From the NCBI GenBank assembly GCA_903915625.1, contig CAIWTN010000185.1:1-64000 (forward strand): a stretch of DNA of 64,000 bases, written 5' to 3'. The position numbers and the translations under genes were made by a program. Positions within the stretch are counted from its first letter, which is position 1. Every line of letters begins with the position of its first letter. Positions 1,893 to 51,311 of the stretch are shown here, piece by piece. Source of the stretch: an uncultured Pseudomonadota bacterium (GTDB lineage: Bacteria > Bdellovibrionota_B > Oligoflexia > Oligoflexales > CAIYRB01). A model generated the notes under the pieces. It was not told the origin of the DNA. It did not search any database and worked only from the letters and a program-made list of their open reading frames with translations.

Positions 1893-3314
1893 ATGCGCGT
1901 GGCGGTAGTGGGTGCCTCAGGATTTGTCGGCAAATCCTTGATTAACTATCTGCTAGATCACACTCGCCATGAAGTCGTCGCGTTAAGCCGCACGCCTTTA
2001 GCCGTGAATCACCCCGAGGCTCCGTCACGCTACCGCGCTATTAGCTGTGATCTGCATAATCTGCTGCAGCTAGAGCAAGCTCTTGAAGGTATTGACACGG
2101 CATTTTACCTGGTCCATTCGATGCTCCCAGGGGCTAGGTTAAATCAGGGAAACTTCTCTGATTTTGACCTTAGCTTAGCCGATAACTTTGCTCGTACCGC
2201 ACGCCTACGCGGCGTCAAACATGTCATTTACTTAAGCGGTCTAGTTCCAGCCGGGAATACGATTTCCCAGCACTTACAGAGTCGCCTCGAGGTAGAAACT
2301 ACCTTGCGGTCTTATCTACCCAATGTGACATGTTTACGCACTGGAATGATTATTGGACCAAAGGGGTCGTCATTCACCATCTTGATCCGGCTGGCGCAGC
2401 GCCTCCCGCTCATGGTGTGTCCGGGCTGGACGACTAATCGCTGCCAAATCATCGTGCTCGCTGACGTCGTTCGCTGCTTAAGCGCTTGTCTGGACCGCCC
2501 CGACCTCCAAGGCAAGACATTCGACTTAGGCGCTAATCCGCCTGTCAGTTACCGCGGGATGATTGCGGACACTGCGCAGCTCCTCGGTAAAAAACCGATC
2601 ATGCTGAACTTCCCTTACTTCACTATAGGTCTTAGTAAACTCTGGGTGCGCCTTGTGACTGGAGCACCTAAAGATCTCGTGTACCCGCTCATTAATAGTC
2701 TGAGTGAGTCGATGTTAGTGAGACCGGACCACCAATGGCCTGACCGCGATCCGCCGTTTAAGGATTTTCTCACCGCTGCCCGCGAGACCTTACCGGATGT
2801 GCTCTCTTCTGGAGAAAAACCGCACGCTTTTCGTGGCTTCAAGCCAGGAAAGGACGGGACCGTGCGCTCGATCCAGCGCTTACCGTTGCCACAGGGCAGG
2901 CGGGCTGCATGGGTGGCACAGCAGTATTTGGCACGTCTGCCAAAAGTATTTCCATTATTGGTAAAAGTCCGAAATCAAGACGACCGAGTTTTGCTCCAAC
3001 TAACTTTTTTACCCATCACCCTTCTTGTCCTGAAATATAGCCCTGAACGCAGTGCGCCCGATCGCCAACTTTTTTACGTTCAGGGTGGCTTACTATGCAG
3101 CAGAAAGAATCGGCGTGGTCGATTAGAGCTGAGGGAAACATTAGGCGGCACGGCTTGCCTAGCAGCTGTCCATGACTTTCGTCCTGCATTACCTTGGGTC
3201 ATCTATAGATGGACGCAGGCAGAAGTGCATCGCTGGTTTATGTACCGACTAGCTCGCGCGATCCAAAAAGATGCCAATAAAAAAGCGCTAGCTGAGCCAG
3301 CTAGCGCTACTTAG
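1893..3314 (+). CDS. NAD(P)-binding (atypical SDR/NmrA-like) protein with C-terminal DUF2867-like region
   Basis: N-terminal VVGASGFVGKSLINYLL Rossmann motif; 473 aa. Confidence 0.75.
   Translation: MRVAVVGASGFVGKSLINYLLDHTRHEVVALSRTPLAVNHPEAPSRYRAISCDLHNLLQLEQALEGIDTAFYLVHSMLPGARLNQGNFSDFDLSLADNFARTARLRGVKHVIYLSGLVPAGNTISQHLQSRLEVETTLRSYLPNVTCLRTGMIIGPKGSSFTILIRLAQRLPLMVCPGWTTNRCQIIVLADVVRCLSACLDRPDLQGKTFDLGANPPVSYRGMIADTAQLLGKKPIMLNFPYFTIGLSKLWVRLVTGAPKDLVYPLINSLSESMLVRPDHQWPDRDPPFKDFLTAARETLPDVLSSGEKPHAFRGFKPGKDGTVRSIQRLPLPQGRRAAWVAQQYLARLPKVFPLLVKVRNQDDRVLLQLTFLPITLLVLKYSPERSAPDRQLFYVQGGLLCSRKNRRGRLELRETLGGTACLAAVHDFRPALPWVIYRWTQAEVHRWFMYRLARAIQKDANKKALAEPASAT
3276..3308 (-). terminator. 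Rho-independent terminator for the minus-strand glutathione peroxidase gene
   Basis: AGCGCTAGCTG-AGC-CAGCTAGCGCT (3284-3308); on the minus strand it is followed by a T-run (complement of AATAAAAA, 3276-3283). Confidence 0.7.
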
Positions 3315-3347
3315 AGTTCGCAAAGCGAGACTCAAATAGAACGAGTA

Positions 3348-3902
3348 TTAGGTCTTCGCATCGGCTAGCGCCGTCTCAATAGCTTTGTTCAACTCAGCGT
3401 CTCCAGGAGCGACACCTGAGGAGAAGCGCCCCACCACTTCGCCGCGGCGGTTCACGAGAAATTTCTCGAAATTCCACTGCACGTCGCCAGATTTTGCTGA
3501 GTTGGCAGTCAAGTATTTGTAGACTGGATGACGCTCGGGGCCGTTAACGTGTGCCTTCTTGAACATAGGAAATTTGACGCCGTAATTCTTCTCACAGAAC
3601 TTGGCAATCGACTCCCCCTCAAGATCTTCCTGATGAAAATCATCGCTCGGGAATCCCAGAACGACAAGGCCGCGATCTTTGTAACTATCGTAAAGTTTTT
3701 GCAGGCCAGCGTACTGCGGTGTGTAGCCGCAGCGTGACGCTGTATTCACAACCAGAACAACTTTACCGCTGTAAGTTTTGAAGCCTACGTTCTCGCCGCG
3801 AAGATTTTTTGCCTCTAAAGCTGAAAACTCCTGCTTATCAGCTTTGGCCATAGCCAATGCACCGCCCAAGGAAAAGGATAGGAGGAAAGCCAGAAACCGC
3901 AT
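3348..3902 (-). CDS. Glutathione peroxidase family protein, exported
   Basis: VVLVVNTASRCGYTPQYAGLQKLY and WNFEKFLV motifs; N-terminal signal peptide. Confidence 0.9.
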   Translation of the reverse strand: MRFLAFLLSFSLGGALAMAKADKQEFSALEAKNLRGENVGFKTYSGKVVLVVNTASRCGYTPQYAGLQKLYDSYKDRGLVVLGFPSDDFHQEDLEGESIAKFCEKNYGVKFPMFKKAHVNGPERHPVYKYLTANSAKSGDVQWNFEKFLVNRRGEVVGRFSSGVAPGDAELNKAIETALADAKT

Positions 3903-4035
3903 AAGTTCTCCTTAAGATTTAGTTCGCTTAAATATCATGTCATGCGATCTTATGCCGGAATCAGCAGTCGCGCCAGTCGCGAGCAACAGATATGGTGCCG
4001 CTTCTATTTGACTGAAGCCTTTGGAGACATCTCTC

Positions 4036-5019
4036 ATGAGTAAATCTCAACCACGCGCAGCCATTATAGGGGCCGGGGTCTGCGGCTTGAATTGCGCACG
4101 GCATTTAAACCAGCACGGGTGGGACGTTGACGTCTATGACAAAGGTCGAGGCATCGGCGGCAGATTAGCTGTCAAACGCATTGATGGCCTCGGTAGCGTT
4201 GATTTAGGCGCTCAATTCATGACCGCATTGACGCCTGAATTCATCTCACTTTTGAGCGATGAGGAAAAGCAGGGGCGCGTTAGGCCCTGGGGTGCCCGCA
4301 TCGCCTACATTCATTCAAAAGCGCATGAGCAAGCTAGCTCGCAAATCCGTTGGATTGGGACTCCCGGAATGAATGCCTGGTTAGAGTCGGTGTGGCCTCG
4401 CACGCAAATTAAATTCAATCAGCAGATCGATAAGGTCACGCGGGGCTCAGATGGTCGCTGGATCTTAGGCGGGACTACGACAGCGCCCTATGACTGCGTC
4501 ATACTGGCTATGCCACCTAAGCAAGCGGCGGATCTCGCTCGCGACACACCTCTTGAGGAAGCGTTACGCGCAGTGCCGATGACCCCGTGCTGGGCTGCCT
4601 TGGCCCTATTTGACCAACCATTATCAGTCGACTTTGATGCGGCGTTTATCCGCATCGGCGGCCTCGATTGGATTGCAGCCAATCACACCAAACCTGGTCG
4701 CACGCCTCACCCTGCTGCATGGACTCTCCATGCTGGCGCAGATCTTTCTAATGAACTACTCGAGAAGACCACTGAGCAGGTCGCTCCCCGACTGCTCAGC
4801 GCCCTGGCCGAAGCCCTGGGGACTAAGTTACCCAACGGTCACATCCCTCTAACCCATCGCTGGCGTTATGCGGCACCCACCGCAGCCCAGCCTACCGGAG
4901 TCTTATGGAACCCAGACTTGGGCATTGGGGCCGGTGGCGACTGGGCTGTCGGTGGACGAGTGGAGGGTGCCTTCACGGCAGGTCGATTACTCGCAGAGGC
5001 CGTGGTCGCTCCACGCTGA
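4036..5019 (+). CDS. NAD(P)/FAD-dependent oxidoreductase (renalase-like amine oxidase)
   Basis: AAIIGAGVCGLNCARHL dinucleotide-binding motif, YDKGRGIGGRLA, C-terminal GGDWAVGGRVEGAFTAG. Confidence 0.85.
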   Translation: MSKSQPRAAIIGAGVCGLNCARHLNQHGWDVDVYDKGRGIGGRLAVKRIDGLGSVDLGAQFMTALTPEFISLLSDEEKQGRVRPWGARIAYIHSKAHEQASSQIRWIGTPGMNAWLESVWPRTQIKFNQQIDKVTRGSDGRWILGGTTTAPYDCVILAMPPKQAADLARDTPLEEALRAVPMTPCWAALALFDQPLSVDFDAAFIRIGGLDWIAANHTKPGRTPHPAAWTLHAGADLSNELLEKTTEQVAPRLLSALAEALGTKLPNGHIPLTHRWRYAAPTAAQPTGVLWNPDLGIGAGGDWAVGGRVEGAFTAGRLLAEAVVAPR

Positions 5020-5153
5020 CCTTGCGTCAGCTAATAAAATACAATTATCTCGTATGGTTACAAAAAATCCACACGGACCGGCGAAGAGTCTTAGATATTT
5101 CGATAAATTTGCGGTGAAAACTCCGTCACTTCCGGCTATAACCTGAGGCCCGT

Positions 5154-5243
<90 letters not shown>

Positions 5244-5445
5244 CCCCCAAGTTTCCGAATTAATTCCAGAAATACCCCCCGCAAACACTGCTGATGCTGC
5301 TTCGGCTGCAGAAAACCTGCTGTGCCGTAAGCTACTTAAGTTCAGCTGGCGTAAACTCCAGTAAATTGGTAGACATTTCCGCCAACGGAATTAATGTCTG
5401 AGAGTGGGTCTCTCTGAGAGAGAGCCTATGGACTTGGAGGTCAAC

Positions 5446-6891
5446 ATGACTTCGGACGCTGCGACGCAGTCGTTCTCAAACCGCGAATACAAGTATGGCT
5501 TCGTCACCGATGTGGAAGCGGATGCTTTCCCTAAGGGACTGGATGAAGATGTCATCCGCCGACTTTCGCAAATCAAGAACGAGCCCGATTTTGTCCTCGA
5601 GTTCCGACTCAAGGCTTTTCGTTACTGGCAAAAGATGGAGGTACCGCAGTGGGCGCACGTCAATTACCCACCGATCGACTTCCAAGATATTCGCTATTAT
5701 TCGGCGCCTAAAAAGAAAGCGCCTGGTCCCAAGAGCCTCGACGAGGTCGATGCTGAAATTATCGATACCTTTAATCGCTTGGGCATCCCGCTCGCCGAGC
5801 AAAAACGCCTTACTGGCGTGGCCGTAGATGCTGTCTTTGACTCGGTCTCCGTAGCAACGACTCACAAAGAAGAACTAGCCAAGCATGGGGTGATCTTCTG
5901 TTCTTTTTCCGAAGCCCTGCGCGAACACCCAGAGCTAGTGAAGCGCTGGCTCGGCAGTGTAGTCCCATATAAAGACAACTACTACGCTGCACTTAACTCA
6001 GCAGTGTTCAGCGACGGTTCTTTTGTATACATCCCGAAAGGCGTTAGGTGTCCGCTCGAACTATCGACCTATTTCCGTATCAATGCGGCAGAAACTGGCC
6101 AGTTTGAGCGCACGCTGATCATCGCTGAAGAAGGCAGCCACGTTAGCTACCTCGAAGGCTGTACAGCTCCTATGAGGGACGAAAATCAGTTACACGCAGC
6201 TGTCGTGGAACTAGTAGCTCTAGCTAATGCCGAGATCAAATATTCGACCGTCCAAAACTGGTACGCGGGCGATAAAGAAGGCAAAGGCGGCATCTATAAT
6301 TTCGTCACCAAACGCGGCATCTGCTTAGGTGAAAGGTCGAAAATCTCCTGGACTCAGGTTGAGACCGGCTCGGCCATCACCTGGAAGTATCCAAGTGTGA
6401 TCCTGCAAGGTGATTACTCAACCGGTGAATTTTATTCCGTCGCCTTGACTAACAACAAGATGCAAGCCGACACCGGTACCAAGATGGTGCATATCGGTAA
6501 GAATACGACCAGCAAGATCGTATCCAAGGGAATTTCGGCCGACGAATCGGTCAACAGCTACCGCGGCCAGGTAAAAATCCTGCCGTCAGCAACGAATGCA
6601 CGCAACTTCTCACAGTGTGATTCCATGTTGGTTGGCAATAAATGTAGTGCCAACACCTTTCCGTATATAGAAGTGAAGAACCCCACCGCACGCGTTGAGC
6701 ATGAGGCTAGCACCTCTAAGATCAGTGCAGAGCAGGTCTTCTATTTAAAGTCTCGTGGTCTTGACGACGAAGCAGCGATTAGTTTGCTGCTGAATGGTTT
6801 CTGCAAAGAGGTATTCAAAGAATTGCCTCTGGAGTTTTCTGTTGAGGCAGTGCGCCTGCTTGAAATGAAGCTCGAAGGGAGCGTTGGTTAA
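5446..6891 (+). CDS. sufB: Fe-S cluster assembly protein SufB
   Basis: SufB sequence ([36 protein letters not shown]); SD GGAGG upstream of ATG 5446. Confidence 0.97.
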
Positions 6892-6892
6892 T

Positions 6893-7645
6893 ATGTTAGA
6901 GATTCGTGATTTAAAAGTCGAAGTCGACGAAAAGAGTATTCTAAAGGGACTCAACCTCACGGTTAAAGAGGGCGAAGTTCATGCCATCATGGGTCCCAAT
7001 GGATCTGGCAAAAGCACCTTGTCGAAAGTCATCGCTGGACATCCAGACTATAAAGTCAGCGGTGGTGAGCTAGCTTACGAGGTCAACTTCAAAAAGAAGA
7101 ATCTTCTCGATTTAAGTCCAGACGAACGTGCTCGCGAAGGCATCTTCCTCGCCTATCAATATCCAGTGGAAGTGCCTGGCGTTAACAATGCCGAATTCCT
7201 GCGCGCTGCCTTCAATGCCGCTGTCCGCCACCAAGGCGGCGAAGAGATGGATCCACTCGATTTTGATACATACTTACGAGAAAAAGTCCGCTATCTCGGC
7301 ATGAATGAGAAGTTCATCGACAGGCAACTAAACGTCGATTTCTCTGGTGGAGAAAAGAAACGCAACGAGATCCTCCAGATGGCGGTCCTCTCCCCTCGCC
7401 TATCGATCCTCGACGAGACCGATTCCGGCCTCGACGTTGACTCGCTGCGCTTAGTGTCCGAGGGCGTCAACAAGCTACGGACTGAGAACAACGCACTCAT
7501 ACTCATCACTCACTATCAGCGTATTCTCAACTACATCGTGCCAGACTATGTGCACGTATTAGCCGGTGGCCGCATTATCAAGAGCGGCGATAAAAATCTG
7601 GCTCTGGAGATTGAGGAACGCGGTTACGACTGGCTGCTGCAATAA
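6893..7645 (+). CDS. sufC: Fe-S cluster assembly ATPase SufC
   Basis: Walker A GPNGSGKSTLSKVIAGHP, FSGGEKKRNEILQM signature, LDETDSGLDVD. Confidence 0.97.
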   Translation: MLEIRDLKVEVDEKSILKGLNLTVKEGEVHAIMGPNGSGKSTLSKVIAGHPDYKVSGGELAYEVNFKKKNLLDLSPDERAREGIFLAYQYPVEVPGVNNAEFLRAAFNAAVRHQGGEEMDPLDFDTYLREKVRYLGMNEKFIDRQLNVDFSGGEKKRNEILQMAVLSPRLSILDETDSGLDVDSLRLVSEGVNKLRTENNALILITHYQRILNYIVPDYVHVLAGGRIIKSGDKNLALEIEERGYDWLLQ

Positions 7646-37074: not shown

Positions 37075-37258
37075 TCACCAGAATTGGCTATGCTACCTAC
37101 AGCCATGGTGTTATCGAGAAAAATGCTCTACCTTAATAGAAACAGTTCTACTTTTTGAAGCCACTCAAAAAATTGGTGCCTCACACCGGACACCGGTGGG
37201 TATACTAAATAAATAGAATCTGTTGCCTGTGATTGTCGCTTTGGAAAAGGAGTTCCGA

Positions 37259-39331
37259 ATGGACGCGCAAAAACTCTTGGACCTTGTCAACAGTCGTGAA
37301 TTCGGCAAGGAATTCGCGGACCTAAACTGGTCCGGCTCGTTTCGCGACTACCTAGACATCGTCGTCGAGAGGCCTGAAGTAGCCCGTACCGCATTCCAGC
37401 GTTGTTACGACATGATCATGTCCTACGGGACCCGTACCTATACGGAATATAAGAAGGAGATTACTCACTTCACCTTCTTTGACGATCCCGTTGATAACGG
37501 CAAAGATGCGATATACGGCCTAGACGTGCATCTACAGAAATTAGTGCTGGTATTCAAAGCTGGTGCGCAGCGCTATGGACCGGAAAAACGCGTCATTTTA
37601 TTGCATGGCCCGGTTGGATCTTCTAAATCCACCATCGCACGCCTCCTTAAAAAGGGATTAGAACGCTACTCTCGCACTCCGCAAGGCGCCCTCTACACCT
37701 ACGTGTGGCGTAATCTTTCCGACATCGTTGGCATGGAAGACGTGATGCCAGATCCGATGCATGGCGAGCCTCTGCACCTGATTCCGGTCGAAAGACGGGA
37801 TGCAGTGCTACGCGCATTGAATCAAAATCGCGACCGCAGTCGGCAGGTCTTCATAGAGGGCGATATCAACCCAGCAAGCCGCTATGTTTACCGCGCTCTC
37901 ATGGAGCATTACCGCGGTGACTGGGAGAAGATGCTCGAGAACCACGTAGAAGTCCGCCGCCTAGTGCTATCTGAGCGTGACCGCGTCGGTATCGGCACCT
38001 ACCAGCCTAAAGACGAAAAGAACCAGGACTCAACTGAGCTCACCGGCGACATTAACTACCGCAAGATCGCTGAATACGGCTCTGACTCAGATCCTCGGGC
38101 CTTCAATTTTGACGGTGAATTCAATATCGCCAATCGCGGCATTGTCGAGTTCATCGAGGTTTTGAAGCTGGACGTCGCCTTCCTTTATGACTTATTGACG
38201 GCGAGCCAGGAACATAAGATCAAACCGAAGAAGTTCGCGCAGTGTGATATCGACGAAGTGATCATCGGGCATACCAACGAACCGGAATTCAAAAAGCTAC
38301 AGAACAACGAGTTCATGGAAGCGCTACGCGACCGGACGATCAAGATCGACGTCCCCTACATTACAAAGCTTCAAGAAGAGATCAAGATCTACGAGAAGGA
38401 CTTCAACTCGGTATCCGTGCCCCACATTCATATCGCTCCGCATACGCTTGAAATGGCCGGCATGTGGTCCATCTTGACTCGCCTTGAAGAGCCTAAAAAA
38501 GCCAACTTGACCCTGATGCAAAAGTTGAAGCTTTATAACGGCAAGACGACTCAGCAGTTCACTGAAGACAACATCAAGGAACTGCGCAAAGAGGCGAAGC
38601 GCGAGGGTATGGATGGCATTTCGCCACGCTACGTGCAGGATAAAATTTCAAACGCATTAGTGGTCGATAAGGGCGGCGGCTGTATCAACCCGTTCATTGT
38701 CCTCAATGAACTAGACTCAGGCCTCAAGGCGCATTCGCTGATCAACAACGAAGAGATTCGCAAACACTACCGCGAACTCCTCTCCGAAGTGAAACGCGAG
38801 TACGAGGATATCGTCAAACACGAAGTCCAGCGTGCCATCTCCGCCGACGAGTCTGCGATCGACAAGTTGTGCGGCAACTATATCGACAACGTCAAAGCCT
38901 ACGTACAGCGTGAAAAGGTGCGCAACCCATTCACGGGGGCCGACGAAGAGCCCGATGAGCGCCTCATGCGCGCGATCGAAGAGAAGATCGACATCTCCGA
39001 GAGCCGCAAAGACGACTTCCGGCGTGAGATCATGAACTATATCGGCGCATTGGCTTTGGAAAAACGCTCTTTTGACTTCCGCACCAATGAGCGCCTCCAC
39101 CGCGCCCTAGAGCTTAAACTTTTCGAAGATCAAAAAGATACGATCAAGCTAACGACCCTGGTATCCAGCGTCGTCGACCGGGAAACACAGGCTAAAATCG
39201 ACGTGGTTAAAAATCGCCTGATTAAAAACTACGGCTACTGTGAGATCTGCTCTAGCGATGCGCTAAGCTTCGTAGCGAGCATATTCGCCCGCGGCGACGT
39301 GACCAAAGCTGACAAGGACAAACAGCCTTAA
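37259..39331 (+). CDS. prkA: PrkA-type serine protein kinase
   Basis: [44 protein letters not shown] before ATG 37259. Confidence 0.95.
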
Positions 39332-39352
39332 GACTGAGAAAAGAGGTCGCAA

Positions 39353-40462
39353 ATGCCGATGCACATGGAATCGGACCTCAACCGGTTCCGCAAGATCGTT
39401 CGCGGGAAGATCAAGAAGGAGCTTCGCCGCTTCATCTCCTCCGGCGACTTGATTGGACGGCAGGGCAAAAAACAAGTGACGATCCCCTTACCTAGGATCG
39501 ACATTCCTCATTTCCAGTACGGCTCGAATGAGCAAGGCGGCGTTGGGCAAGGTAACGGCGAGGTCGGCGACCAAGTAGGTCAAGGTGACCCGCAACCAGG
39601 CGAGGGTCAGGCCGGAGACTCTGCTGGTCAGCATAGTCTTGAAGTGGATGTCACCTTGCAAGAATTGGCGGAGATCCTCGGCGAGGAACTCGAACTCCCC
39701 AACATTGAAAACAAGGGCAAGAAAAACATCGAGGACAAGCAGTATAAGTACACTGGTATCCTCAAACAGGGTCCGGAGTCGCTTAGGCACTTCAAGCGTA
39801 CTTATAAAGAGGCTCTGCGCCGCGCCATCTCTTCTGGCAATTACGACCCAGAAAATCCTGTCATCATCCCAAGAAAAGAAGATAAGCGCTACAGGTCCTA
39901 CCGAGTCTACAACCTGCCGGTAGCAAATGCCGCGATCATCTACATGATGGATGTTTCGGGGTCCATGGGGGATGAGCAGAAGGAAATCGTTCGGCTCACT
40001 AGTTTTTGGCTAGATACTTGGTTATCGACGCAGTATGCCGGCCTAGAGCGACGCTACATCATTCATGATGCCACGGCGCGCGAAGTCGATCAGCAGACGT
40101 TCTACCGGACTAAAGAGTCGGGTGGGACCTTGATCAGTTCGGCGTACCGATTGGCTCAGAAGATGATTGAAGAGTCATTTGATCCGGCGGAATGGAATAT
40201 CTACTTATTCCACTTTTCTGACGGCGACAATTGGTCGGGCAACGACACCGCCGAGTGCATGAAGATCCTGGAGGGCCAATTAATTCCAGCCTCCAATCTA
40301 TTCGCCTATGGCCAGGTCGAATCTCGCTATGGATCTGGTCAATTTTTGCGCGACTTACAGAAGCACTTTGGCGATACATCAAATAAAATCACGCTATCTC
40401 AAATTAAAGATCGAGATGCGATAGTAGACGCTCTCAAAACGTTTCTTGGCAAAGGCAAATAA
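39353..40462 (+). CDS. yeaH: YeaH/YhbH (DUF444) family protein
   Basis: [49 protein letters not shown]. Confidence 0.95.
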
Positions 40463-40466
40463 GTCT

Positions 40467-41960
40467 ATGCATGGTTACAATACCCAACTGACGCCAGAGC
40501 TTGAAGAGGTCGCCGCGCGGCTGGCTGATGCAGCACGTGCAGCCGGCCTAGACTTCTTTGATACGATCTTTGAATTGGTGGACTACAAGCAACTGAATGA
40601 GATCGCGGCATATGGTGGATTCCCGACGCGCTATCCCCACTGGCGCTGGGGTATGGAATACGAGCGACTGTCTAAAAGCTACACCTACGGTCTGTCGATT
40701 ATCTATGAAATGGTCATCAACAACGACCCCTGCTACGCCTATCTCTTGCGTGCAAATGACATGGTCTACCAAAAGACCGTAATTGCTCATGTTTATGGCC
40801 ACTGCGACTTTTTCAAAAATAATTATTGGTTTAGCAAGACCAATCGGAAAATGCTCAATCAAATGGCGAATCATGCCGTTTTAATGAGAAAATTTATCGA
40901 TGAAGTCGGACAAGACGAAGTCGAGTCTTTTATTGATACCTGCCTCTCCCTAGAAAACCTGATCGATATTCACTCGCCCTTCAAAGCTCAGCCGAAAAAG
41001 AGTGAAGACCAAGACGAATACGGTCGCCCAAAACAGCCATCTAAAATCAAAGCCAAGTCCTATATGGACAACTATATTAATCCCGCCGAGTTCATGGAAT
41101 ATCAGCGGCGCAAGCAGGTTGAAGAGGCCGAAAAGGTCAAAGGCTTCCCAGAAAACCCCGAGCGGGATGTACTCAAATTTCTAATAGACCATGCACCGAT
41201 GTCTAGCTGGGAAAAGCGCGTCCTTGGGATCATTCGGGATGAGTCCTATTATTTTGCGCCGCAAGCACAGACCAAAATTCTCAATGAGGGATGGGCTACC
41301 TATTGGCATAGCAAAATGATGACTCAGATCGCCCCCCTCCACGAGAGCGAGATCATCGACTACTGCGATCACTTCGCAGGTGTGGTGGCATCCCACCCAG
41401 GCGGCCTTAACCCCTATAAACTCGGCGTTGAATTGCTGCGACACATCGAACGCAGATGGGACCGAGGCCAGTTCGGGATCGATTATCTACACTGTGATGA
41501 TCCCAAAACGCGCTCAGAGTGGAATAAAAATCTTGGCCTAGGAAAACAAAAGCTCCTTGAGGTGCGTCGTATCCATAACGACATCACCTTCCTAGACGAG
41601 TTCTTGGACGAGGACTTCTGCCACGAATCGAAGATGTTCCTATACGATTACGACCGGCGCTCGAATCGGCATGTGATCTCGAGTCGCGACTTCCGCGAGA
41701 TAAAACAACGCTTATTGCAGCAGCTGACCAACTTCGGCCAACCGATTATCAGGGTCGTCGATGGCAACTTCCGCAATCGCGGCGAGCTCCTCCTCACTCA
41801 CAGTCATGAGGGAGCTGATTTAAAACACGATGCGACCCTAGAGACTTTGAAGAATCTACACCGTATTTGGAAGCGACCGGTACACATCGATACCTTGTTC
41901 GAAGAGGTTAAAAGAAGGATCTCCTATGACGGTACGAACCACCAGATTGAGAAAATCTGA
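40467..41960 (+). CDS. SpoVR family protein
   Basis: FPTRYPHWRWGMEYERLSKSYTYGLSIIYEMVINNDPCYAYLL; ILNEGWATYWHSKMM. Confidence 0.96.
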   Translation: MHGYNTQLTPELEEVAARLADAARAAGLDFFDTIFELVDYKQLNEIAAYGGFPTRYPHWRWGMEYERLSKSYTYGLSIIYEMVINNDPCYAYLLRANDMVYQKTVIAHVYGHCDFFKNNYWFSKTNRKMLNQMANHAVLMRKFIDEVGQDEVESFIDTCLSLENLIDIHSPFKAQPKKSEDQDEYGRPKQPSKIKAKSYMDNYINPAEFMEYQRRKQVEEAEKVKGFPENPERDVLKFLIDHAPMSSWEKRVLGIIRDESYYFAPQAQTKILNEGWATYWHSKMMTQIAPLHESEIIDYCDHFAGVVASHPGGLNPYKLGVELLRHIERRWDRGQFGIDYLHCDDPKTRSEWNKNLGLGKQKLLEVRRIHNDITFLDEFLDEDFCHESKMFLYDYDRRSNRHVISSRDFREIKQRLLQQLTNFGQPIIRVVDGNFRNRGELLLTHSHEGADLKHDATLETLKNLHRIWKRPVHIDTLFEEVKRRISYDGTNHQIEKI

Positions 41961-44680: not shown

Positions 44681-45394
44681 TCAATTCGCGTTCATCTTCA
44701 TATTAGCAAAATTAGTATAGGGAAGAATTATACTACGCTCCAAAACTGAAAGAGCACCAGCCTTCTGACTTGGTGACAAAAATACTGAAGTAAATGCCAC
44801 CATCAAAGGACTAGTGCCACTTTGGGTGAAGCAGGCATTAAACCCTAGGATCCCATTGATCCTGAAAGAGCTAGCCGAATTGGATCCATTATGGGGAAAC
44901 CTTACAATTCTGTTTACTGCACCAGCGCTAGTAACCGTGACAATTGGCATCAGTCCTTGAGGACAGGCCATGCAGCCATTGGGCATCGCCGTTCCAAAAT
45001 TGAGAGTGTTGAATCGAGTCATTGCATTTATACTACCTGGACTGACGCAGCCACTGGTATAGGTTTTAGTTTCCAAAGTCCCCGCCATACCGTGCGCCAC
45101 GGTAAGTTTCAAACTAGGACAATTAGTTGTACAAGGAGCGTTGGATTGGGACAACAGACTATAACTTGCACGAGCATTCCAACCAATTCGCAGACTATTC
45201 AGAAACTCCTCAACTTCACTCTTCACATCTGCACGCAACGATTCTTGTGCCTTTGAACGATTCACGCTAATAAAAAAAGAAATAGCTGCATACATGATTA
45301 TGGCCACAATGCCAGTGGCCATGACGAGCTCGATGATGGTCATCCCCAGCTGACTGTTCCTATTTAAAAATCTGCTCTGCTCAAAGCGCCACAT
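44681..45394 (-). CDS. Type IV prepilin-like protein (PilW-like)
   Basis: Prepilin signature SQLG|MTIIELVMATGIVAIIMYAAISFFIS with Glu5. Confidence 0.82.
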   Translation of the reverse strand: MWRFEQSRFLNRNSQLGMTIIELVMATGIVAIIMYAAISFFISVNRSKAQESLRADVKSEVEEFLNSLRIGWNARASYSLLSQSNAPCTTNCPSLKLTVAHGMAGTLETKTYTSGCVSPGSINAMTRFNTLNFGTAMPNGCMACPQGLMPIVTVTSAGAVNRIVRFPHNGSNSASSFRINGILGFNACFTQSGTSPLMVAFTSVFLSPSQKAGALSVLERSIILPYTNFANMKMNAN

Positions 45395-46061
45395 TAATCG
45401 CCCCAGCGCGTGATTTTACCATATTTTCCTGGTTGACTCGCATCAGCCACTTCACCGAATAGTAGACCTCTAGCCCCTTACCGGCATTTGCCACGACGGT
45501 TCCGCAAGGCACATCAATATCTTTCTGCAAATCTTTAATATGTACGACCACCTGCAAAAAAGCAGCTTTAGCCTGAATCATCGCATCCATATCATTGGAT
45601 CTCATGACGGTAGAGTTCAAATTCACCTGATAGCATGCATAAAAAGTTGAAGCTGCCTGGGCTGTAGCAGCGCTAAAAATAGGTTTACTCATGCAGCGGT
45701 TGTAGTCTGGATCTCCCGGGAATTTACCGACTATCCCCGTTTTAACGGTGCTATCTATTGATCCAATATTGGCTAAATTAATTTTGTTTATTAAATTTAT
45801 ATTACCACACCGCGCCCCTGGACCAGCTGCATTTACATAATTCTTAAATGACTGCGCTACCACTTGCACCACAGCAGCATCCATCTCCCGCGAAGCTTCG
45901 TTTGCTGTGACACGGCGTCTAGACTTATTCAAAGCACTGATGCCCATTCCCGCCGAAAGGACGAGGATGATCAAAATCGCCGCACCAACCATTGCAGACA
46001 GCAGAGTCTCGCCGGATTGGCCGTTGCGACGCATTAGCATCTTATGAAATCTAGCATTCAT
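45381..46061 (-). CDS. Type IV prepilin-like protein (PilV-like)
   Basis: GQSG|ETLLSAMVGAAILIILVLSAGMG hydrophobic segment following an RRNGQ leader. Confidence 0.7.
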   Translation of the reverse strand: MNARFHKMLMRRNGQSGETLLSAMVGAAILIILVLSAGMGISALNKSRRRVTANEASREMDAAVVQVVAQSFKNYVNAAGPGARCGNINLINKINLANIGSIDSTVKTGIVGKFPGDPDYNRCMSKPIFSAATAQAASTFYACYQVNLNSTVMRSNDMDAMIQAKAAFLQVVVHIKDLQKDIDVPCGTVVANAGKGLEVYYSVKWLMRVNQENMVKSRAGAINVAL

Positions 46062-46102
46062 CGGGAGCACTCCGCATTAATACGCAACATGATCGGCATC
46101 TC

Positions 46103-48571
46103 TCACTGATTCGAAAGCAAAGATCCCAGTTTCTCCTGTAAGTAAAGGTCCCCAGTTATAAGTCCATTAGCGAGCAGAGCGTGATCATCCGGATCTGAAG
46201 TCGGAGCATCGAGTTCCAGATTTACCACCGGCAGACGGCCTCTTTCTCGACTGACCGAATCAATACGGCGCCAGTTACCTTTGGCATCTTGAATCGAATC
46301 AATATTAGTCAGGTAAATAGCTGCTTTTACACCGCTTGGTGTTAGCATTGGATGCTGTGTAGTGACTTTAACTGTGGCATCACCCGCGCGAACGACGACC
46401 AATTCGTATTTCTCTGGCCCCATGGTTGTGCGCTTAACTCGCATAGGAATATTGCGAATCGGATTCATAACCATATCGCCTTGCACTATATCAGCAACTT
46501 CTTTGTCAGTGCCGTCGCCCATACGAATTTTGGTGTGGAATTCGAAGCAGCCTAGGTTAATCCGGTTGTACATGGTGAGCTGGCAATTAGGTGAGTTAGC
46601 TGGTCGAATTTGCCCCATCGGCGTACGCCCTTGGGTGCTGCCTGCAGCAAAACAACGCGCATCGGGTGGGCAATCTGCGGTTTCGTACGGTGAGTTCGCA
46701 ACGGAAGCAATTTCCACGTTGGGATAAGCTGCGCCCATAGTGATTGAGGCATTCCATGCGTTGCCGTAATAATTAACGTAGATATTAGCTGTCTGAGTGT
46801 AGGTCCGAAATTGATTGCCAAAAAATGGGCACTGATTGACCCCTCTGGTCACCCGCGTAATGCACTGACTTGTACCACCGTAACCGTCATTAACCGTACC
46901 GGTGATTTTGTAATCCATAGGTTTGTTCATGGATGTTAGAACCGTATTCAGCTGACTGATAAAACTGTTCGGCTCAAAGGTATTCATCTGTTTGAGAGCT
47001 TTGGAATCGAGCTGCTTGAGACCTTTAGTAGCTGATAAGTCGACATCCGAACTAAGTTTATCCAATTTATTTGGATCCAATGCCTGAATTAAAGCGACCT
47101 GCTCAGCCGTTAGATTCGCTAATCCCGGTAGGCTGACTAAATCAAGCGCGGCTAAGTTTTCGCGCTGGGCCGAAGTAAGGTAAAAAAGTGCATCGCACTG
47201 CTCGATCGTCAGCGACCATAGCGGCTTGTTGCTACTTTGCTTAAAAATCCCTTTTAACATATTGACGTGTGTCGTGAATGCGTTCGTCAGCGTACCTAAC
47301 TGTATCGAATTCAGTCCGGAAATAGCAGTATTGTAGGTTGTTGCTAGTTGCGGCGATACCGAGCTGCTGGAAGCCGATCCATTATAGGCATCTACTGGAG
47401 CACAGAACTGATACTTAGAGCCATTCTTTTTGATGTTGCTCGACAAATCGGCCCCAGTGATGTCCTCAGCCTTGAGCTTTAAAGTGCTGGCGTTGACATT
47501 ACCTACGAAGTCGTAAGAGATGTTCGCACATGCTCCGGGAGCTACCGAAGCCTGATCCGTATATAAGTGACAGTCAGTCGCTGCAACGATCTGCACATTA
47601 GCGCGACATTTAGTCAGACTAAAGTCCTGATCATCGGCCGGTTTGACATAAGCATAAATTGGCATCGGAACAGTTGCCGCACCATCGACAGCAGCCAAAG
47701 GCCGCAATGTCACGACGCTGAATGGCATAACGTTTTTATCAATGCCCGTCACGCTGCGCGCTTTTGACAATAAAGAAGTTTTTGTATAGTTTTTAAGGTC
47801 TGTTTGGCTGTCATTCGAGAGCGAAGCTAAAGCGTCATTTGGCGTGTAGGCTTCAAGAGCAACTCCCGAAACATGAAGGATCATGTCCACTCGCTCGTTC
47901 GGCTGATAAACGGTCTTGCCGCCAACCAGCTCGATCCTACACTCTGGCAGAGGCATCTTAGGAACAGGCAGTGTCGCGTTCATCCGAACAGCGACATTAT
48001 TCTGCGCGGTAGAGGCGACGCTAACATTGTAGCTAGTGATCCAATATGGATAACCAGGTTTTTCAAAAAGCGGTTTATTAAACGTTACATCAGTTTGCTT
48101 GGTAAAGGTCGGGCGCACACCGTTGTCAGCAAAGGTACCCACGTCCTTCGCACTAAGAGCCGTGCTATCGGCAAACTTGAACGACACTTTCGAGAAGGCT
48201 CGGTTGCCTGACATATAGGAGGACACGCCCCAGGTGTTGGCTCCTGAAACCGCCCGCGTTTTATCGACGCTCACATTCGCAAGATATGGCTCCGGGAAAA
48301 CATATGGTAGTCCGGCAGCATAGCTAGCCATAGCCTTCCCGGTAGCCGGGTTCGGCTGATAGTTCATCAAAGCCATGATTTGAGAAAGTCCGGATACACT
48401 GGCTTGTTGAGTCCGGTCAGTAGACAACCTGGCCGAAATTTCGGTGCCAAGATTCTGAATCTTGTCCATCTCGAAATACACACCCGCGGTTATCGCACCG
48501 GCAAGTACAATAGAGAACACGATTGCGGCCGATCCACGTTCATCTCGCCAACTAAAGTTTGATTTCGTCAT
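46103..48571 (-). CDS. Large pilus-associated/exported protein with C-terminal Hint domain
   Basis: N-terminal TM RGSAAIVFSIVLAGAITAGVY; C-terminal CFEFHTKIRMGDGTDKEVADIVQGDMVMNP...VKVTTQHPMLTPSGVKAAIYL...VVNLELDAPTSDPDDHALLANGLITGD. Confidence 0.8.
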   Translation of the reverse strand: MTKSNFSWRDERGSAAIVFSIVLAGAITAGVYFEMDKIQNLGTEISARLSTDRTQQASVSGLSQIMALMNYQPNPATGKAMASYAAGLPYVFPEPYLANVSVDKTRAVSGANTWGVSSYMSGNRAFSKVSFKFADSTALSAKDVGTFADNGVRPTFTKQTDVTFNKPLFEKPGYPYWITSYNVSVASTAQNNVAVRMNATLPVPKMPLPECRIELVGGKTVYQPNERVDMILHVSGVALEAYTPNDALASLSNDSQTDLKNYTKTSLLSKARSVTGIDKNVMPFSVVTLRPLAAVDGAATVPMPIYAYVKPADDQDFSLTKCRANVQIVAATDCHLYTDQASVAPGACANISYDFVGNVNASTLKLKAEDITGADLSSNIKKNGSKYQFCAPVDAYNGSASSSSVSPQLATTYNTAISGLNSIQLGTLTNAFTTHVNMLKGIFKQSSNKPLWSLTIEQCDALFYLTSAQRENLAALDLVSLPGLANLTAEQVALIQALDPNKLDKLSSDVDLSATKGLKQLDSKALKQMNTFEPNSFISQLNTVLTSMNKPMDYKITGTVNDGYGGTSQCITRVTRGVNQCPFFGNQFRTYTQTANIYVNYYGNAWNASITMGAAYPNVEIASVANSPYETADCPPDARCFAAGSTQGRTPMGQIRPANSPNCQLTMYNRINLGCFEFHTKIRMGDGTDKEVADIVQGDMVMNPIRNIPMRVKRTTMGPEKYELVVVRAGDATVKVTTQHPMLTPSGVKAAIYLTNIDSIQDAKGNWRRIDSVSRERGRLPVVNLELDAPTSDPDDHALLANGLITGDLYLQEKLGSLLSNQ

Positions 48572-48873: not shown

Positions 48874-50226
48874 TTGAAGACTAACATTCTGGCCATCCTT
48901 ATCGGAGCAATGGCTCCTCTGTCGGCGCAAGCCACCACCGTCGCAATCATCGATTCGGGATTTGATTACGAGCACGAAGCATTGCAAGGCAAAGTCTGGA
49001 CCAACCCCGCTGAAGTCGCTGACGACACGCTTGATAACGATGGGAACGGTAAAATAGACGATGTCCACGGCTGGAACTTCGCTGACAACGACGGCCTGAT
49101 CATCGACTACAAGCTGCAAGATAGCTACGTACCTGACATCGAAAAATTCCTTGAACTGCAACTCGCAGCCACAGAAGGATCTGCAACCGAAGGCGAAAAA
49201 ATCTGGCTGAAAGAGCGCCTTGGCGACGGCGAATTCATCAAGAGACTACAGACATTCGGTGGCTATGCACACGGTACTCACGTGGCCGGAATCGTCGCTC
49301 GCGACAATCCTGGTGCGCAACTCATTGCGGCTAAGTTGATCTCGACAAAAACCTTCTTCGAAAAACTCAAACGCAAAGTCCACGCGTCGTTGGCCGAGGG
49401 CAAAGATGTAGGCTTCATCCAAGAGTTCGTAATCAAGGCCGGTATGTACGGACTAGCCATACAGCAGGCGAAGACGTTCGCGACTATCGCCGAGTATTTA
49501 CATGCTAACGGTGTGACCGTCGCAAACGGCTCATTTGGCACCGGGATGGAACAAATCCGCGGCCTTGTAGGACCCATCTTGATGGCGGTTACTAAAGGTC
49601 AGCCATCACCAGAGCTTGTTGACGAATATGCCGCGTTCTTCGTCAACCGGATCATCGCTGAACAAGCAAAGATTTTTGCTAAATACCCAGACATCCTCTT
49701 CGTCTTCGCCGCAGGCAACGACAGTTCTGATAACGACGCACTTCCCGCTGCCCCGGCTGGCGTCCGTTTGGATAACGTCATCACAGTGGGAGCCACCATT
49801 GGTAACTCTGCGATTGCACCGTTCAGCAACTTCGGTGCATCCCGCGTCGATTTGTTTGCACCAGGAGTAGGTACTAGGTCCTCTGTACCGCACCAAAACA
49901 TGTACCTACCACTCAGTGGAACGAGCATGGCTGCTCCGGAAGTGACCCGCGTCGCTGCCCTGATCAAGGACAAGAACCCTAACCTTGCAGCTAAAGATCT
50001 CCGCGACATCCTCATGGGCACGATCGATCGTAAGGATTTCCTGAAAGGTCGCTCTTACACAGAAGGCGTCGTCAATGACGAGCGTGCTGTTGCTGCTGCT
50101 GCGGGATCATTGACCACTGACATCCGTAGCGCCATCAAGTCCGCCAAGCGCGCCGTTGCCGACAAAAACCCCGTCGGCAAGTATGACGCTAAAAATGGCG
50201 ATTTCTCGTATGTGACTCCTTTCTAA
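48874..50226 (+). CDS. Secreted subtilisin-like (S8) serine protease
   Basis: Catalytic Asp AIIDSGFDYEHE, His GYAHGTHVAGIVA, Ser LSGTSMAAPEV; signal peptide; TTG start. Confidence 0.93.
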   Translation: MKTNILAILIGAMAPLSAQATTVAIIDSGFDYEHEALQGKVWTNPAEVADDTLDNDGNGKIDDVHGWNFADNDGLIIDYKLQDSYVPDIEKFLELQLAATEGSATEGEKIWLKERLGDGEFIKRLQTFGGYAHGTHVAGIVARDNPGAQLIAAKLISTKTFFEKLKRKVHASLAEGKDVGFIQEFVIKAGMYGLAIQQAKTFATIAEYLHANGVTVANGSFGTGMEQIRGLVGPILMAVTKGQPSPELVDEYAAFFVNRIIAEQAKIFAKYPDILFVFAAGNDSSDNDALPAAPAGVRLDNVITVGATIGNSAIAPFSNFGASRVDLFAPGVGTRSSVPHQNMYLPLSGTSMAAPEVTRVAALIKDKNPNLAAKDLRDILMGTIDRKDFLKGRSYTEGVVNDERAVAAAAGSLTTDIRSAIKSAKRAVADKNPVGKYDAKNGDFSYVTPF

Positions 50227-50420: not shown

Positions 50421-51311
50421 ATGCGGCTTGGTAAAATTGTTCAATCAATTCTGACCGTTACGACCATGATCGGGAGCGCCGCAACAACCGCTTTCGCCCT
50501 ACCAATCGGACATTCCAGCGATTATTCCTATACTGAGAGCTCGTCTGTACCCGCGCTATTGGCTCCAGGAGTTAACTTTCTTGGCACCGTCGCACTGAAC
50601 AATTGCTCCGGTGCACTGGTACGATTTCGCCAATCCCACCCCGACGATCGCGCTTTAGTACTTACGAACGGACACTGCTTAGAGAGCGGCCTACCGACAC
50701 CAGGTCAAGTGATCACTGATGCGCCGTCACGCCGTACTTTTGACCTAATGAACAAAGACGCCTCGGATGTCCTGGGTACTCTCAGTGCAGAATCCATGCT
50801 CTATGGCACGATGACCGATACTGACGTAGCTCTGTACCTGCTAACGGACACGTATACCGAGATTAGCCAGCGCTACGGTGTGCAACCATTGACCGTCAGC
50901 GACAAGCATCCAACAGCTGGCGCTGCGATCAACATAGTTTCAGCTTACTGGCGCCGCACCTACACGTGCAGCATCGACAACTTTGTTTCGGAGCTTCATG
51001 AAGACGGCTGGATTTTCCGCGATGCCATCCGTTATACGGCTAAAGGTTGCGCTGTCATTGGCGGCACCTCGGGCGCGCCTATTATTGGCACCGACCCTAG
51101 TCTAGTGATCGGGATCAACAACACGATCAATGAACAAGGCGGCCGCTGCACTCGCAACAATCCTTGTGAAGTAGATCAAAATGGTTCCGTCGTGGTGAAA
51201 AAGGGTACTGGCTACGGTGAGCAGGTCTACTTGTTCTACGGCTGTTTAGACGGCACGGGTCACGGCATCGATTTGAGTCGTGCTGGCTGCAGCCTGCCCA
51301 AGCCTCAGTGA
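50421..51311 (+). CDS. Secreted trypsin-like serine protease
   Basis: Signal peptide; VLTNGHCLE, DTDVALYLL, GGTSGAPIIG triad motifs. Confidence 0.88.
   Translation: MRLGKIVQSILTVTTMIGSAATTAFALPIGHSSDYSYTESSSVPALLAPGVNFLGTVALNNCSGALVRFRQSHPDDRALVLTNGHCLESGLPTPGQVITDAPSRRTFDLMNKDASDVLGTLSAESMLYGTMTDTDVALYLLTDTYTEISQRYGVQPLTVSDKHPTAGAAINIVSAYWRRTYTCSIDNFVSELHEDGWIFRDAIRYTAKGCAVIGGTSGAPIIGTDPSLVIGINNTINEQGGRCTRNNPCEVDQNGSVVVKKGTGYGEQVYLFYGCLDGTGHGIDLSRAGCSLPKPQ

Follow-up and report, generated by a model that had tools for sequence, protein, structure and literature searches.

A C-terminal Hint domain with a Gly-Asp ending on a prepilin-like protein of an Oligoflexia bacterium, and its probable role in maturing a minor filament subunit

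C-type bacterial intein-like (BIL) domains were reportedly described from predatory bacteria by Dori-Bachash et al. in 2009. In hedgehog proteins the junction preceding the processing domain reads Gly-Cys-Phe, and to our knowledge no Hint-type maturation step has been described for minor pilins. A PPS-1 domain is reported for the C-type BIL (PMC9185962). A-type BILs end in His-Asn (PMC7765530), and an earlier survey noted secreted bacterial proteins whose C-terminal Hint-like domains form a group outside the known classes (PMC2362128). Among filament proteins, PilX and GspK have no Glu5, and both are assigned to the tip of the filament (PMC7541494).

The locus described here lies in a stretch of 64,000 nucleotides (the window) from a freshwater relative of predatory bacteria, and its features are collected in Table 1. 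Like the C-type BILs, the window protein carries a Hint-family domain in or near predatory lineages, a likeness of description and occurrence rather than of motif alignment; the window domain is abundant in Oligoflexia and in the phylum of genome G059, which we take as Myxococcota. The closest solved structures and profile matches are the A-type BIL 2lwy and Tetrahymena BIL2 (6y75), with which it has Cys1 and TxxH in common, but the window family ends in Gly-Asp, three residues and a Gln instead of His-Asn. With the Hog-Hint domain it shares the C-terminal position, the fold (1at0, 6tyy), the Gly-Cys-Phe junction and the absence of splicing residues; in contrast, the window protein is bacterial and has no sterol-recognition region, only a 14-residue tail. 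The resemblance to GspK/PilX and PilY1/minor-pilin tip complexes (PMC7541494) consists in a large Glu5-less prepilin-like subunit encoded with smaller minor prepilins, and we count as a further likeness to these systems the several diversified copies of window-type clusters per genome in relatives. Unlike GspK and PilX, however, the window protein has a C-terminal Hint domain and an additional transmembrane (TM) partner, and shows no sequence match to those families.

Given the C-type BILs and the survey group, this kind of Hint domain was already known, and the window domain is a member or close variant of it. We found no report of a C-type BIL with prepilin-type N termini, minor-prepilin neighbors or the partner, and the prepilin-type carrier, its minor-prepilin neighbors, the partner family, the fusion and the Hint-less operon described below appear to be undescribed, in both cases within a searched literature that misses most subscription journals.

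Table 1. Positions of the Hint-bearing gene, its parts and its neighbors (window coordinates unless a locus handle is given)
Feature	Position	Strand	Remarks
Hint-bearing prepilin-like protein, 822 aa	46103..48571	(-)	ORF; ~674-residue N-terminal part and C-terminal Hint domain
Prepilin-like leader and helix, MTKSNFSWRDERG^SAAIVFSIVLAGAITAGVYF	48476..48571	(-)	read from the sequence
Hint domain, residues 675-822	46106..46549	(-)	profile, structure, conservation
Predicted scissile junction Gly674-Cys675	46547..46552	(-)	Gly at -1 in 46/48, Cys in 48/48, Phe after Cys in 46/48
Cys1 (Cys675), codon	46547-46549	(-)	
Thr737	46361-46363	(-)	
His740	46352-46354	(-)	
Terminal Gly807-Asp808	46148-46153	(-)	
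14-residue tail	46106-46147	(-)	
Stop codon	46103-46105	(-)	
Minor prepilin without Glu5 (RRNGQSG^ETLLSAMVG...)	45381..46070	(-)	GspI/PilV-like position; the ATG at 46061 is the likelier start
Minor prepilin with Glu5 (NSQLG^MTIIELVMATG...)	44681..45394	(-)	GspJ/PilW-like position; equivalents in relatives
Partner protein, 301 aa	43744..44649	(-)	N-terminal TM helix and extracytoplasmic domain; iterative profile search
Hint-less orthologue of the pilin-type Hint protein, 457 aa	L156:5806-7176	(-)	G032 operon

The Hint gene is single-copy in its own 4.4-Mb genome assembly. Full-length relatives of the protein come from genomes of the same genus and from G027; beyond these, in the collection of relatives drawn from 56 genomes, the matching stretch covers residues ~660–818 only, and one genome holds eight copies. 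Searched as a single sequence, the protein matches Pfam Vint at E=0.008, below the cut-off, and phmmer against the PDB returned no useful match. Because such searches gave marginal Hint matches only, a profile was needed, and it was based on a 48-row alignment of relatives (A1), whose invariant columns include C4, T66, H69, V111, N113, H126, G136, D137 and Q141. A1 proved too divergent for a pattern search of genome contigs; a subset (A2) gave matches, and the contig scan with the full-length protein as query found nothing. Against the PDB, the 48-member profile matches Tetrahymena BIL2 6y75 (E 1.9e-12) and the Clostridium thermocellum BIL 2lwy (3.3e-12), as well as many inteins (the Mtu RecA intein at about 1e-5), and in Pfam individual family members match Vint, PT-HINT, Hom_end_hint, Intein_splicing and Hint, the best at 2e-10. 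The AlphaFold model of the domain (pLDDT 96.4, pTM 0.89) retrieves 6y75 at the top in Foldseek (E 6e-11), then 2lwy, with the gp41-1, DnaB and RecA inteins and hedgehog 6tyy/1at0 at lower ranks. Since profile matches, model and Foldseek ranking agree, the assignment of the last 148 residues, from Cys675, to a Hint domain is secure and well beyond a chance result: the Hint fold is present in model and search, together with a Cys675 nucleophile and the block-B residues Thr737 and His740. A sequence-only reading had placed such a domain at the C terminus of a pilin-cluster surface protein and had proposed a Hint profile match as a check; the match was obtained, the frame, positions and residues agree with what it gave, and its blocks A, B and terminal block are correctly located. 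The length it gave, about 670 residues, agrees with the 674 residues that precede Cys675 but not with the whole protein (822).

We examined conservation in 86 relatives from Oligoflexia, the G059 phylum and three further lineages. Cys1 is kept in 85 of 85, and the block-B Thr/Ser, the block-B His and the block-F Asn are each kept in all 86. Such near-universal conservation indicates, at the level of sequence, that the residues for an N-S acyl shift are under strong constraint, in line with the earlier suggestion that this step is possible. They persist, as Cys1 and TxxH, where the N-terminal parts have diverged past BLAST recognition. The residue before Cys1 is Gly in 71 of 85 and Ser in the other 14, Ser occurring in about half of the G059-phylum members. 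At the other end of the domain, the terminal Gly (86/86), the Asp (85/86) and a Gln four residues on (86/86) define a GDxxxQ motif that, judged from these alignments, is the signature of a large family spanning Oligoflexia and a second, myxobacteria-like phylum. The sequence-only reading had taken Gly-Asp as a replacement of His-Asn; its conservation makes it the rule in the family and not a one-off loss, and on the same counts we reject a decayed or degenerate His-Asn.

Inteins and A-type BILs have a C-terminal His-Asn, and inteins a +1 Cys, Ser or Thr with a C-extein; the window protein instead has Gly807-Asp808 and then Leu809, in the 14-residue tail. The residue after GD is mostly Leu in the family, and is Cys, Ser or Thr in none of 50 Oligoflexia tails tested; the tails of the Oligoflexia members examined run to 10–35 residues (median 19). 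Judged by this anatomy, neither splicing nor C-terminal release is supported, and the earlier view that splicing is unlikely holds. Half of the Oligoflexia members (24 of 48) also have a Cys at -2, giving a Cys-Gly-Cys junction, where the window protein has Leu. From its sequence, such a junction could make Cys1, or the cleavage, redox-gated in the members that carry it.

The N-terminal part resembles a prepilin. Its leader is basic, with Gly at the expected cleavage site (RDERG^SAAIVFSIVLAG...), and leads into a hydrophobic helix without Glu5; the N termini of relatives show the same pattern. Pfam N_methyl does not match the window protein, and HMMER on 34 full-length members returned essentially Hint models only, plus one N_methyl match, with no PilX or T2SSK and no GspK/PilX family at E 0.01. 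The Hint gene heads a four-gene, same-strand cluster with the two minor prepilins and the partner, separated by ~30-base gaps or short overlaps; promoter and terminator scans gave results at or below chance. Equivalents of the Glu5-less prepilin follow the Hint gene in L051, L052, L053 and L058, and the prepilin with Glu5 matches N_methyl at E=0.0021, just under the cut-off. The genome also encodes a prepilin peptidase, other prepilins and seven matches to T2SSE-type assembly ATPases; a PilY1 search, in which no positive control matched, found none in the genome. Upstream and divergent from the Hint gene lies a subtilase gene (48874-50226, (+); PF00082, 1e-39), followed by a trypsin-like protease gene (50421-51311, (+); PF13365). 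A link between the subtilase and the Hint gene was considered and dropped, as no such gene was noticed by eye beside L051 or L052.

The fourth gene of the cluster appears to encode a single-TM protein of an undescribed family. Its model has a pLDDT of 85.6, with a confident extracytoplasmic domain in which four cysteines (117, 184, 193 and 300) are invariant, and it shows no consistent Pfam family, PDB sequence or PDB fold match. An iterative profile search from this 301-residue neighbor finds homologs beside many Hint genes. The 58 genomes of the phylum hold 38 copies, and for 35 of them a Hint match lies no more than about 2.1 kb away (this includes G004:C318, counted by hand because the contig ends within its Hint gene). 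The three unlinked copies are L155, beside prepilins at a contig end; L156, in the Hint-less operon; and L154 (5867-6733, (+)), an isolated gene with neither Hint nor prepilins close by. In two further lineages, G060 and G061, the Hint proteins are ordinary secreted proteins rather than prepilin-like ones, and the partner gene follows directly or lies near the Hint gene in most loci seen. In an outlying lineage, L082 (Deltaproteobacteria bacterium RIFOXYA12_FULL_61_11), two lipoproteins fuse partner-like and Hint domains in one chain; these neighbors (2768-4732 and 4775-7369, (+)) also contain Cys-rich repeats, and their Hint domains are of the GD type. Because of these secreted proteins and fusions, the partner is, by gene linkage, associated with Hint-bearing proteins whose N-terminal parts are of more than one type. 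Many Hint genes have no partner, for example those of a short, ~275-residue type and of the G059-phylum type. For the cluster seen in the window, the conserved unit includes the two minor prepilins and the membrane-anchored partner.

One operon separates these elements. G032, a genome from the genus of G029, keeps the cluster order (prepilin-like protein, partner, two prepilins) without a Hint domain. Over 307 residues its first protein shares 40% identity with the N-terminal part of the Hint protein in G029; it ends ...YINQLTCQCK*, and the partner begins a few bases on. No Hint remnant was found downstream in any frame read; the end of the protein was placed by gene order and the missing remnant, not by aligning the last residues. 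Because G032 retains both the N-terminal part and the partner without Hint, the arrangement suggests that the N-terminal part is the working unit, functional when no Hint domain is joined to it, like that of hedgehog, and that the partner goes with this part. The idea that the partner acts on Hint only is weakened by the same operon. Over 30 linked pairs, partner distances correlate with those of the N-terminal part at r 0.83, a value derived from poor N-terminal alignments (mean identity 19%), and with those of Hint at r 0.73, which 0 of 2000 permutations reach. On these values the partner seems to track the N-terminal part at least as well as it tracks Hint, bearing in mind that co-inheritance alone yields correlation.

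We infer that thioester autocleavage at Gly674-Cys675, without splicing, is the best-supported activity of the domain, and consider it probable that this N-terminal autocleavage serves to mature a tip-type minor subunit. The large prepilin-like subunit would enter the inner membrane and lose its leader to the prepilin peptidase, while the Hint domain would fold in the periplasm. With help from Thr737 and His740, it would convert the peptide bond between Gly674 and Cys675 into a Cys675 thioester, which water or another nucleophile would resolve. The predicted products are a subunit of 674 residues (minus the leader) with Gly as its last residue and a released piece of ~16 kDa, with neither C-terminal cleavage nor splicing. 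The matured subunit would then join the two minor prepilins in the tip of a type IV pilus or pseudopilus, and the TM-anchored partner would probably handle the mature N-terminal part in assembly or anchoring. Autocleavage is favored because the Hint fold is secure, Cys1 and TxxH are kept, the -1 Gly and the Phe are mostly kept, the tails are short and no tested Oligoflexia tail has Cys, Ser or Thr at +1; the Ser at -1 in the G059 phylum weakens it, and in an oxidizing periplasm the Cys at -2 could block Cys1. Placement at a tip, by analogy with PilX and GspK, which also lack Glu5 and sit there, is favored by the prepilin-like N termini, the adjacent prepilins and the pilus machinery genes, and weakened by the HMMER result, with no PilX/T2SSK and N_methyl in 1 of 34 members. 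Maturation as the purpose is favored by the G032 operon, which keeps the N-terminal part, partner and prepilins without Hint. If this reading is correct, the tips of bacterial type IV filaments are matured, or covalently attached, by autoprocessing of the hedgehog type.

The resemblance of the junction to that of hedgehog, with Gly and Phe each in 46 of 48 members, and the dedicated partner gene, adjoining Hint in 35 of 38 cases and fused to it in L082, would suit a hedgehog-like conjugation in which a specific nucleophile attacks the thioester and the subunit ends up bound covalently by its C-terminal Gly, the acceptor being the partner, a pilin, a lipid or cell-wall amine or a surface touched by the pilus. 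We consider this somewhat unlikely, acceptors included: there is no sterol-recognition-like region, only the short tail; all four invariant cysteines of the partner can be accounted for by disulfide pairs, so that no invariant residue stands out as a nucleophile; and partner and Hint occur without each other, the one in G032, the other in many loci. A bolder version, in which the cluster acts as a self-sortase for Gram-negative type IV filaments, the Hint thioester passing the C-terminal Gly of the tip subunit on to a particular acceptor (the partner, a pilin, the envelope or the surface of prey) to give covalently built or attaching tips in many diversified copies per genome, strikes us as unlikely.

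The GD ending and the loss of Hint in at least one lineage (G032) could also mean that cleavage has been lost and that the domain now acts at the C terminus as a module for structure or targeting. We regard this as quite doubtful, because the strict retention of Cys1, Thr, His and Asn, and mostly of the -1 Gly, across distant lineages is not expected of a merely structural module. Inteins with a C-terminal Asp have been reported, and true splicing with Asp replacing Asn might be envisaged here; with no His before the Asp, Leu at +1 and a C-terminal piece of 14 residues, it is highly improbable, and we reject splicing on this anatomy. PT-HINT matches in some members recall pretoxin domains that free a C-terminal toxin, but with only 10–35 residues after the domain in the members examined and no toxin domain following it, toxin release is refuted by the anatomy and its probability is negligible. 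Of these readings, autocleavage that matures the subunit remains the one we prefer.

In the window's phylum, 38 of 58 genomes carry GD-type Hint domains, as do 73 of 193 in the G059 phylum, with up to 14 copies per genome; the N-terminal part is varied and the processing domain fixed. Such a large Hint family, linked to an undescribed membrane partner, lends itself to direct tests of its role, for example in the recognition of prey or surfaces by Oligoflexia and their relatives. In a quick tree of 86 Hint domains, in which many deep forks are weakly supported, the partner-linked domains group (9 changes versus 26 in shuffles), and the short Oligoflexia type groups with one G059-phylum type. 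In the G059 phylum, whose genomes measure 9–14 Mb, there are up to nine GD-type Hint proteins per genome (L134-L153), of at least two types: short secreted proteins and lipoproteins of about 650 residues with Ser-Cys junctions. At L105, L106, L107, L109, L111 and L112, short secreted Hint proteins (about 275 residues) lie beside a different single-TM helical protein, and these loci also carry a secreted protein that is subtilase-like by eye; they may represent a second, parallel module that has a partner of its own. Elsewhere in the window, a prkA–DUF444–spoVR trio occupies positions 37223-41960 (+).
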